Shown here piece after piece: positions 6,261-21,183 of a DNA stretch of 21,563 bases; within the stretch, counting starts at the first letter, position 1; each line of letters opens with the position of its first letter. The stretch is from a virus. Made by a program: the position numbers and the translations under genes. The notes beneath the pieces were generated by a model. That model was given only the letters and a program-made list of their open reading frames with translations, was not told where the DNA came from and ran no database searches. Location of the stretch: the IMG/VR virus record IMGVR_UViG_3300030012_000579, positions 1,186-22,748 of that record; one strand, given 5' to 3'.

Positions 6261-6614
6261 ATGACAACCGAAAGAACCGCAGATGTAATTCTTGGAGCTT
6301 TTCAAGATGAAATGACTACAAGAAAAAAATTTGAAATAAAAGATTCAAAAGGAAAAGTAGTCACAACATTATATTTTAAGCCTATTACTAGATATGCAAG
6401 AGTAAAGGCACAGCAATTAGCTGGCTCTGATGATGCTTTAGTTATTTCAACGCAACTTCTCTGTCAAATGGCAGAAAAAGAAGATGGGACTCTTGCTTTT
6501 GATATGTCAGATGCCCCTATTTTACAAAGACAACTACCAGAAAAAGTTTTAAATGAAATTGAGCTTTTTCTTAATGACATTAAATTAGATATTGAAACAG
6601 CAAAAAAAGAATAA
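6261..6614 (+). CDS. tail assembly chaperone, zero-frame product (gpG-like)
   Basis: 117 residues between tail tube and tape measure genes, the fixed place of the lambda G chaperone. It contains an N-terminal helix, KFEIKDSKGKVVTTLYFKPITRY, and an acidic helical C-terminus. The end of the gene reads GCA AAA AAA GAA TAA; the seven-A run at 6602-6608 is a slippery heptamer that shifts into the -1 frame, producing a longer GT-like form (see 6608-6790). The short form is expected in excess and to bind the tape measure with the long form. Confidence 0.8.
   Translation: MTTERTADVILGAFQDEMTTRKKFEIKDSKGKVVTTLYFKPITRYARVKAQQLAGSDDALVISTQLLCQMAEKEDGTLAFDMSDAPILQRQLPEKVLNEIELFLNDIKLDIETAKKE
6602..6608 (+). 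other. -1 ribosomal frameshift site (A AAA AAA)
   Basis: Seven consecutive A in phase X XXY YYZ relative to the chaperone gene, followed by G and the zero-frame TAA only four bases later. The -1 frame is open from 6596 to 6790 and has no usable start near its beginning. Slipping here joins 116 zero-frame codons to 60 codons of the -1 frame. This is the classical arrangement of tail chaperone genes in siphoviruses. I found no convincing stimulatory hairpin by eye. Confidence 0.8.
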
Positions 6615-14170: not shown

Positions 14171-14965
14171 ATGACAAGAGTAAATTCAACTGGCAAAGAA
14201 TCTAGCAGTAATTTTTCACCTGATAATGGAACTGGTTTGGCAGTTAGAACGGCACTTAAAGATATTCTTGAATCTTTAAGAACAGTCAATAGTGCGGCTG
14301 GAGATCCATCTGGGGCGGCAAATCTAGCAGCATATCAATTACATATTGATAGTGATACTGATTTATTAAAAATTAGAAATGGTGCTAATTCAGCTTTCGT
14401 TACTTTAGGTAATGTAAGTCAGACAAACTTTGGTTTTTTATCAGCCGGAGGAGGAACTCTTACTGGAGTACTAGCTGCCTCTGCTGGATCTGCCTCTGCC
14501 CCATCTTTGCATTTTGGAGATAGTACAACAGGATTATTTAAAAAGGCATCAAATCAAATAGGACTTACATTTGCTGGTACGGAAAAAGCTTTTTTTGATC
14601 AAAACGGTTTTACTTTACAGGCTCAATCAGATTTAAGATTTGCTGATTCTGACAGTTCTAATTTTATAGCTTTGCAAGCCCCTGCAACTGTATCAAGCAA
14701 TGTCACTCTCACTTTACCAGCTACAGATGCCCCTGTTAGTGGATATGCACTGATATCTGATGGCTCAGGAACTTTAAGCTGGGGTGTTGCTGGAGGAGGT
14801 GCAAACGGAAATGGATCTAATGAAATTTTCTGGGAAAATGACCAAATTGTAACTGGTAATTATTCGATAACTAATGGCAAGAACGCTGGAAGTTTTGGGC
14901 CTATAGAAATTCAAAGTGGAGTTACCGTTACAGTTGGTTCTGGAGAAACATGGACTGTAGTATAA
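14171..14965 (+). CDS. tail fibre protein with shared C-terminal module
   Basis: 264 residues. The N-terminal part (MTRVNSTGKESSSNFSP...VRTALKDILESL) probably attaches to the tip. Residues about 103-160 carry SASAPSLHFGDSTTGLFKK and IGLTFAGTEKAFF, a pattern of phage fibre shafts. Then come ALQAPATVSSNVTLTLPATDAP and, from about residue 217, an ENDQIVTGNYSITNGKNAG...VTVGSGETWTVV end that recurs in the gene at 19678. Its role is host adsorption, by family pattern and position just after J. Confidence 0.75.
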   Translation: MTRVNSTGKESSSNFSPDNGTGLAVRTALKDILESLRTVNSAAGDPSGAANLAAYQLHIDSDTDLLKIRNGANSAFVTLGNVSQTNFGFLSAGGGTLTGVLAASAGSASAPSLHFGDSTTGLFKKASNQIGLTFAGTEKAFFDQNGFTLQAQSDLRFADSDSSNFIALQAPATVSSNVTLTLPATDAPVSGYALISDGSGTLSWGVAGGGANGNGSNEIFWENDQIVTGNYSITNGKNAGSFGPIEIQSGVTVTVGSGETWTVV

Positions 14966-19677: not shown

Positions 19678-19992
19678 ATGGCAAATACTATTAAATTAAA
19701 ACGAGGTACAAGCACACCTACTACAAGTGATATTGTTAATGGCGAAGTTGCTCTTGATACTTCTGCCCAAAAGTTATTTGTCAATGATGGAGGTACAGTA
19801 AAGGAGATTGGAGGAGGTAGTAGCGTTCCAACTGGAGGAGGAAGCGATGCTGTTTTTTATGAAAATGATCAAGCGGTTACAGCAGATTACACAATAACAA
19901 ACGGTAAAAATGCTATGGCTGCTGGTCCTATTACCATTAACAGCGGTGTTACTGTGACTGTTGGTTCAGGAGAAACCCTTACTATTGTTTAA
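19678..19992 (+). CDS. small fibre protein with Mtd-like N-terminus
   Basis: 104 residues. The N-terminus (NTIKLKRGTSTPTTSDIVNGEVALDTSAQKLFVNDGG) fits the short beta domain found at the start of many phage receptor-binding proteins, including the major tropism determinant. After a Gly/Ser linker, residues about 57-104 (ENDQAVTADYTITNGKNAM...VTVGSGETLTIV) repeat the C-terminal module of the gene at 14171. A clear AGGAG ribosome binding site lies at 19663-19667. It looks like a minimal adhesin: anchor plus cap. Confidence 0.7.
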   Translation: MANTIKLKRGTSTPTTSDIVNGEVALDTSAQKLFVNDGGTVKEIGGGSSVPTGGGSDAVFYENDQAVTADYTITNGKNAMAAGPITINSGVTVTVGSGETLTIV

Positions 19993-19995
19993 TTT

Positions 19996-20154
19996 ATGAA
20001 AGAAATTATAGAAAAACAGATTCTTGAATGGCAGCAGGAAATAATAAACCAAAGACAATATATTCTTAGACTAGAAGGTGGTGTACAAGCATATCAATTA
20101 TTATTGAAGGAAATTGATAAGTCAAAAGAGGTAAAAGAAAACATAAAAAAGTAG
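19996..20154 (+). CDS. small coiled-coil protein, likely frameshift donor
   Basis: 52 residues, mostly charged helix (MKEIIEKQILEWQQEIINQR, LRLEGGVQAYQLLLKEID) ending KENIKK. Similar helical mini-proteins follow fibre genes in marine phages; function unknown. The gene ends ATA AAA AAG TAG: A AAA AAG is a classical -1 slippery heptamer, and AGAGG lies 13 bases ahead of it. Shifting to the -1 frame adds 44 residues with a zinc finger (see 20151-20285). Confidence 0.65.
   Translation: MKEIIEKQILEWQQEIINQRQYILRLEGGVQAYQLLLKEIDKSKEVKENIKK
20127..20151 (+). other. candidate -1 frameshift signal, dnaX-like
   Basis: AGAGG at 20127-20131 as possible internal Shine-Dalgarno stimulator, a 13-base spacer, then A AAA AAG (20145-20151) in the correct phase, with the zero-frame TAG directly after. 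The E. coli dnaX signal has the same heptamer and an AGGGAG about 10 bases upstream. ACTTG (20162-20166) and CAAGT (20190-20194) could form a weak stem downstream. Confidence 0.5.
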
Positions 20155-20285
20155 AAGGGATACTTGTTAGAGAGTGTCCTGTTTGTGGTGCAAGTTTTAA
20201 TACGATGGAGCAAAGAAGGATTTATTGCAGTGGAGCGTGTAAGACTAGATCAAGTCGTAGTAACAAAACCTTGAAAAGGATTTGA
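20151..20285 (+). CDS. zinc-finger extension (CX2C-X13-CX3C) in the -1 frame
   Basis: The frame is open from 20121 to TGA at 20283-20285 and has no ATG, GTG or TTG before its first cysteine; the one ATG lies after CPVCG and would lose the first two ligands. The 44 residues after the shift read VEGILVRECPVCGASF, then RRIYCSGACKTRSSRSN and a basic end. CX2C-X13-CX3C with 'YCS.AC+.R..R' is a common bacterial and phage treble-clef-like finger. Fused to the upstream helix it gives a 96-residue protein. Alternatives: an AUA start at 20160, or a decayed separate gene. Confidence 0.55.
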   Translation, partial: VEGILVRECPVCGASFNTMEQRRIYCSGACKTRSSRSNKTLKRI

Positions 20286-20321: not shown

Positions 20322-20675
20322 ATGCTCAAAAAAGTATTAACAATAGCTGCTGCTTCAGCACTATCAACACCAGCGTTTGCAGGGTTCTACTTGAACGTTG
20401 AATCAAATTCCGCGTTTCTTGGCAAAGATTATATCGGAACTGGAACGGACGCTCATTTAGGGTACGAAGGTGGAAATGGTTCTGCTTCTTACTACCTACA
20501 AGGTGGTGCGTTTTTATCTAACCCTGATGGTGGCGAATCAAGCACAAACTTCTCTGGTAAAGTTGGTGGTTCTGTAGCAGCTACAGATAAAGTAGATGTT
20601 TATGGTGAATTTTCTATTGTCACAGACACAACTAATTCTTACGGAACGAAGCTTGGCTTGAAGTATAAGTTTTAG
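20322..20675 (+). CDS. secreted outer-membrane-barrel-like protein
   Basis: 117 residues with a clear Sec signal peptide (KK at 3-4, hydrophobic 5-15, cleavage after AFA at 18-20). The mature 97 residues alternate like beta strands (FYLNVESNSAF, DAHLGYEG, SASYYLQGGAF, KVDVYGEFSIV, YGTKLGLKYKF) and end in Phe, as outer-membrane proteins do. I know related 'porin-like' proteins in cyanophages. It may alter the infected cell's envelope, for example uptake or exclusion of other phages; that is inference. The leader holds TATATAAC but no Shine-Dalgarno sequence. Confidence 0.75.
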   Translation: MLKKVLTIAAASALSTPAFAGFYLNVESNSAFLGKDYIGTGTDAHLGYEGGNGSASYYLQGGAFLSNPDGGESSTNFSGKVGGSVAATDKVDVYGEFSIVTDTTNSYGTKLGLKYKF

Positions 20676-20779: not shown

Positions 20780-20998
20780 ATGTTAAATAAAATCTCTTCT
20801 ATATTATCCATCGTATCTTTTGTGATTAGTATTTCAACTTTAGGTGGAGCTTATGCAGGTTATCGTTACATAACCAGCCCACAGTTTGAAAAGATGATGA
20901 TGGAAAAGGTTATGGGTAAAGTATCAGGACTTATGCCAAAAGCATTAGATGAAGCGATACCAAGTACAACAGGTGTTTCTATACCGTTTAACAAATGA
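20780..20998 (+). CDS. small single-pass membrane protein (72 aa)
   Basis: 72 residues: one transmembrane helix at about 5-27 (ISSILSIVSFVISISTLGGAYAGY), then an amphipathic Met/Lys-rich helix (SPQFEKMMMEKVMGKVSGLMPKAL) and a Pro/Thr end. Comparable 'GYRYITSPxFE..MM.KV' proteins occur in cyanophages. Function unknown; a membrane role during infection is the obvious reading, and a holin cannot be excluded, though only one span is seen. The stop overlaps the next ATG (ATGA), making an operon with the zinc ribbon gene. Confidence 0.65.
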   Translation: MLNKISSILSIVSFVISISTLGGAYAGYRYITSPQFEKMMMEKVMGKVSGLMPKALDEAIPSTTGVSIPFNK

Positions 20999-21183
20999 AC
21001 TGCTGGCATTGTCAAACAGAATTAATCTGGGGCGGAGATCATAGCGTTGAAGAGCTTAAACCCATACTTGCAGAAGAATATGCAATGGTCACAAATCTCT
21101 CCTGTCCAAAATGTGAATCCTATGTAGAGGTTTACTTTCCTAACTATGACAGAGATAAAGATACCGCAGATAACGCTTCCTAG
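20995..21183 (+). CDS. zinc-ribbon protein (CX2C...CX2C)
   Basis: 62 residues: C3-x2-C6 in MNCWHCQTELIWGGDH and C37-x2-C40 in TNLSCPKCESYVEVYFP make a two-knuckle zinc ribbon. Short phage proteins starting 'CWHC.TELIWGGDH' are common in cyanophages and other marine phages, without assigned function. The ATG overlaps the previous stop, and the last 38 bases overlap the start of the next gene in another frame. Confidence 0.7.
   Translation: MNCWHCQTELIWGGDHSVEELKPILAEEYAMVTNLSCPKCESYVEVYFPNYDRDKDTADNAS

Follow-up and report, generated by a model that had tools for sequence, protein, structure and literature searches.

Background

To our knowledge, the conserved frameshifts of bacteria and phages outside mobile elements are few, and comprise those of the tail chaperones, of some coat and tail proteins bearing Ig-like tails, of dnaX and of release factor 2. 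A review of frameshifting (PMC5009743) treats the dnaX cassette and, among phage genes, G/GT, A2 cro, the extended coat and tail proteins and the Ig-like domains. The cassette of E. coli dnaX consists of the heptamer A AAA AAG, a 5' Shine-Dalgarno stimulator and a possible 3' hairpin, and dnaX genes whose zero-frame stop abuts the site or closely follows it have been reported from a few bacteria such as Chlorobium (PMC5009743). The Ig-like domains of phage virion proteins are C-terminal domains that frameshifting places on a fraction of the protein; they sit on unlike partners and occur also without a frameshift (PMC5009743). The lambda G/GT tail assembly chaperone is made as a short form in excess and a long -1 form. 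Our search of the literature on phage frameshifting, zinc fingers and cyanophages, in which subscription journals were thinly covered, found no case such as the one described here.

The locus that we describe, a coil-finger gene of a tailed phage, resembles each of these systems in part. It has the same heptamer, a Shine-Dalgarno-like element and a possible hairpin as in E. coli dnaX, but whereas the shift shortens the dnaX product it would lengthen the coil-finger product, the zero-frame stop lying at or just after the site. As with the Ig-like domains, a C-terminal domain would be carried by a fraction of the protein, is found on unlike partners and occurs also without a frameshift; the domain, however, is a small four-cysteine finger and not Ig-like, and the partner is a helix of 52-75 amino acids and not a coat or tail-tube protein. 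As in lambda, an abundant short form and a long -1 form are predicted in the structural region of the genome, but the slot between the major tail protein and tape measure genes is held by another gene and the coil-finger gene comes after the fibres. The CX2C...CX3C spacing recalls YacG and the HNH-associated treble-clef fingers, to which there are weak profile and fold matches, although these are below family cut-offs or not significant and an HNH motif is absent. The locus would belong to a known kind of system, in which programmed -1 frameshifting adds a domain to a phage protein, here a finger on a helical mini-protein.

Results

The analysed window is a stretch of 21,563 nucleotides (G000:C1:1186-22748) from a 24,124-base IMG/VR virus record, and the parts of the coil-finger gene given below are on its plus strand. 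The 52-codon zero-frame ORF at 19996-20154, for which scanning found 59 relatives, encodes a helical (coil) protein and ends AAC ATA AAA AAG TAG. The in-phase heptamer A AAA AAG (20145-20151) abuts the TAG stop codon (20152-20154), and AGAGG, a candidate Shine-Dalgarno-like 5' stimulator, lies 13 nt upstream of it (20127-20131). The -1 frame extends from 20151 to 20285, with coding positions 20151-20282 and a TGA at 20283-20285, and its translation is the 44-residue finger VEGILVRECPVCGASFNTMEQRRIYCSGACKTRSSRSNKTLKRI with the pattern CX2C-X13-CX3C. This frame has no ATG, GTG or TTG 5' of the first cysteine; its first ATG comes only after the first two cysteines, before which the sole near-start is an ATA. 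The initial annotation had described the ORF end, the phased heptamer, the AGAGG and the start-less 44-residue frame, and its description holds to the base. A possible 3' stimulator, a 9-bp hairpin formed by GGGATACTT and GAGTGTCCT, begins 5 nt after the heptamer (20157-20180).

Taken alone, the heptamer is unremarkable and weak evidence in a single genome, since this genome is A-rich and the window holds 14 in-phase A6(A/G) sites in about 6,950 codons. Comparison with relatives lifts it above chance. IMG/VR was scanned with the finger only, blind to upstream sequence, and with the coil only, blind to downstream sequence. A separate first-pass scan with the coil gave 59 loci, and in 59/59 A AAA AAG stood directly before the stop (57 TAG, 2 TAA) with the finger in the -1 frame. 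In the census an in-phase site occurs in 131 distinct genes (128 A AAA AAG and 3 A AAA AAA); leaving out one natural in-frame fusion (L440), the site was found in 130/130 distinct coil-plus-finger genes with the finger in -1 (127 A AAA AAG, 3 A AAA AAA). As many of the sequences are closely related to one another, the counts are of sequences and not of independent events. The initial annotation had wondered if homologues would have the two frames fused or linked by a heptamer, and in all 130 such genes it is the slippery site that joins them. In one further locus (L446) the site is present and the coil start is degraded.

The site is conserved at the nucleotide level. The codon 5' of AAA AAG varies, specifying any of seven residues (E, V, I, K, A, Q, T), yet its third base is always A, while the KK pairs found elsewhere in the same ORFs are written A_AAA_AAG in 0/21 cases. 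The distance from the site to the zero-frame stop ranges from 0 to 27 nt among subfamilies, yet the -1 join stays at the site. The N-terminal helical parts to which the fingers of the census are linked fall into two unlike families. An unusual C-terminus, RLCRSNKRLEKNKKSTSIQL, is common to the fingers of L039-L042 and L181 although their coils belong to different families, which hints at finger exchange between coils. A 102-column finger tree has well-supported branches that require coil type to have changed at least twice. Even so, an AU test does not reject a single clade (p 0.556), and recombination of the coil families at the slip site is therefore unproven.

Synonymous resampling shows that the Shine-Dalgarno-like element is under selection. 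An SD-like motif was present in 73% of 100 genes against 30% expected, and in 60% of 42 cluster representatives against 27% expected, being missing from 17 of the 42; it starts most commonly 14 nt before the heptamer. The mean anti-SD energy was -5.55 in the 100 genes versus -3.96 after resampling, with 0/400 resamples as low, and -5.17 versus -3.59 kcal/mol in the 42 representatives, where again 0/400 resamples reached the observed value. For the 3' hairpin, at least 8 of the 9 pairs can form in 44/58 close relatives and some relatives are without it, and 56/58 members of family A have either an SD-like motif or the hairpin. No compensatory changes or covariation were seen in the hairpin among the close relatives, and the energy z-score of the 3' region averaged only about -0.4 in 25 representatives; a conserved 3' RNA structure is thus unsupported by covariation or energy z-scores.

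Both parts of the gene bear marks of constraint. The finger frame is coding and under purifying selection: its dN/dS is 0.15, whereas the two remaining frames of this DNA give 1.5 and 2.2. The dN/dS of the coil is about 0.065 over its first 37 codons. The coil is predicted (AF2) as one continuous helix over residues 2-51 with a pLDDT of 92.7, and it may oligomerise as a coiled coil. The finger is predicted (AF2) as a knuckle of short strands and a helix with a pLDDT of 75. PHROG matches to HNH families fall mostly within the finger; neither an HNH catalytic motif nor another nuclease part was found, and the 96-aa product has no histidine. A PDB sequence search returned generic CxxC matches only.

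Several natural variants serve as controls. The site accompanies the joined finger in 132/132 sequences, L440 and L446 included, versus 1/39 finger-less coil genes. Eighteen loci with a 69-aa-type ORF have neither an in-phase site nor a finger, and their alignment shows a single gap from the heptamer through the finger, with the coil and the downstream DNA kept. Site and finger may have been lost together in this clade through one deletion, the direction of the change being unproven. The finger is also missing from a second clade of coil genes (L392-L412), of which 1/21 has the site. In that gene (L395) the slippery A run is in phase and ends 31 nt short of the stop; it may be a relic. In the natural in-frame fusion L440 a deletion in the coil has moved the start into the finger frame; this coil-finger fusion (L440:1270-1640) could also be an assembly error.

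The gene family was found in ocean phages related to siphophages of Prochlorococcus and Synechococcus. The capsid protein of the window shares 82% identity with its counterparts in Prochlorococcus phages MED4-184/P-HS2 and MED4-117 and 63-67% with those in Synechococcus phages S-H1 and KBS-S-2A, and the best matches of the J-like tail protein are likewise in the Prochlorococcus phages; a cyanobacterial host is therefore likely, judged from these matches. The finger is absent from the four nearest isolates (P-HS2/MED4-184, MED4-117, KBS-S-2A and S-H1). Among 50,697 phage records no homologue of the coil was found and the finger had only weak matches, many of them to HNH-type genes; one scan of bacterial and archaeal genomes found none.

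In most loci with enough flanking sequence the gene comes directly after tail-fibre-type genes or a small ORF that accompanies them, and in most of these the downstream neighbour is a secreted beta-barrel-like ORF or a small membrane protein, the neighbour genes being named from a reading of their sequences by eye. Some of the upstream fibre-type genes end in what we take to be an S74 chaperone C-terminus. In the window, the separate ORFs at 14171-14965 and 19678-19992 have near-identical ends (GPIxIxSGVTVTVGSGETxTxV), perhaps a shared fibre module. Downstream, a barrel-like 117-aa ORF with a signal-peptide-like start (MLKKVLTIAAASALSTPAFAG) at 20322-20675 also stands behind the coil-finger gene in many relatives. 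A small membrane-protein ORF (20780-20998) overlaps by ATGA a 62-aa ORF with two CxxC pairs (20995-21183), and both recur in relatives. Elsewhere in the window, 6261-6614, just before the tape measure gene, shows a tail-chaperone-type overlap with an in-phase A AAA AAA (6602-6608) and the -1 continuation RIKGDSWLRFELF...

Discussion

Programmed -1 ribosomal frameshifting is the best explanation for the joining of helix and finger, and on the sequence comparisons we regard it as highly probable. One gene would then yield two products. Most ribosomes would read 19996-20154 and release the 52-aa helical protein at the TAG, while a fraction, of a size that we infer to be the smaller, would slip back one base on A AAA AAG, aided by anti-SD pairing to AGAGG and perhaps by the 3' hairpin, and would yield a 96-aa product, the helix now followed by the C-terminal CX2C-X13-CX3C finger, presumably zinc-binding. 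Because an in-phase slippery site stands at the junction in all 130 relatives, two versions of one protein are very probably made. The comparison supports this reading through the conserved phase, site and 5' stimulator, the selected finger, the lack of a start codon and the joint absence of site and finger. The A AAA AAA in the tail-chaperone overlap of this phage and the natural in-frame fusion in L440 also count in its favour, whereas the SD-like motif missing from part of the family and the hairpin without covariation count against it. The frameshift junction proposed in the initial annotation is thereby supported by the in-phase site in 130/130 genes and the start-less fingers of five relatives, and its regulated pair, helix alone and helix plus finger, is plausible.

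Slippage may also occur in transcription, where an extra A in some of the mRNAs would give the helix-finger fusion by ordinary translation. This would produce the same fusion and is not fully separable from ribosomal slippage. Every site has an A run, which reaches 9-10 A in a few relatives of type B (L120, L122, L125, L181). Most sites, however, have 6-7 A ended by a conserved G, a shape that favours tandem tRNA-Lys slippage. Moreover, a selected SD-like element is expected for slippage of the ribosome and not of the polymerase. Although transcriptional slippage is a known route to the two dnaX products in Thermus (PMC5009743), we consider it improbable here, and the slippage is presumably translational.

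The initial annotation had also allowed for a finger made separately, from a non-standard start; re-initiation past the coil stop would have the same outcome. Most members of family A do have an ATA 8 nt downstream of where the stop codon begins, and free-standing fingers with an ATG of their own exist. Five close relatives (L005, L006, L026, L027 and L035), however, have no ATG, GTG, TTG, CTG, ATT, ATC or ATA in the stretch from the upstream in-frame stop to the first cysteine; since none of the seven recognised start codons is available, ordinary initiation of the finger is ruled out in these five, and with it the non-standard start. The retention of the site in 130/130 genes and its absence where the finger is absent also speak against a separate finger protein, and with a zero-frame stop that can be as far as 27 nt downstream of the site, re-initiation would have no fixed geometry. 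We therefore hold a separately made finger to be very unlikely. The initial annotation had named a finger with its own start as a finding that would count against frameshifting. Such fingers do occur, in about ten loci (L106 and nine among L482-L492) at the same place after the fibre genes, but in these loci the finger is on its own or separated from the coil, with neither a heptamer nor a joined coil. They show that a finger can exist as a protein of its own, but they represent a different layout and do not contradict frameshifting. An error of assembly or sequencing in a homopolymer, or a decayed gene, might be suspected from a junction within an A run in metagenomic data; this is already contradicted by the low dN/dS in both frames and by the 130 distinct sequences, drawn from many separate assemblies, that share the frame relation, and the probability of such an error or decay is negligible.

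With frameshifting as the preferred reading, the function of the two products can be addressed only tentatively. By analogy with lambda G/GT we favour an accessory role in the tail-fibre module, in which the helix may oligomerise and a minority of subunits might bring the finger to a partner; this is a possibility about which we remain doubtful. A function that is not tied to the tail, with the finger form acting as a host-directed regulator such as a YacG-like gyrase inhibitor, seems less likely still. YacG (4tma) is the best Foldseek match of the finger model, and there is a weak match to Pfam YacG (PF03884), but neither is significant: the Foldseek hit has a TM of 0.55 and an E of 1.3, and the Pfam score of 11.7 bits is below the cut-off of 25.5, as are the scores of the other Pfam matches. 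The gene also adjoins tail-fibre genes, which argues against such a regulator.

Conclusions

The coil-finger locus is a probable case of conserved frameshifting in a gene too small for annotation to notice; standard gene callers would list only the 52-aa ORF, without the finger. Its deletion, free-standing and fused variants act as natural controls. The genes may belong to a widespread family in which a zinc finger is placed on interchangeable helical proteins only via -1 frameshifting, so that it would be borne by a set minority of the subunits of an oligomer, possibly as a ratio-controlled adapter of the tail-fibre module, though we put this forward with considerable reserve. The locus offers a compact, testable cassette and suggests that -1 extensions may be hidden in other short phage genes.
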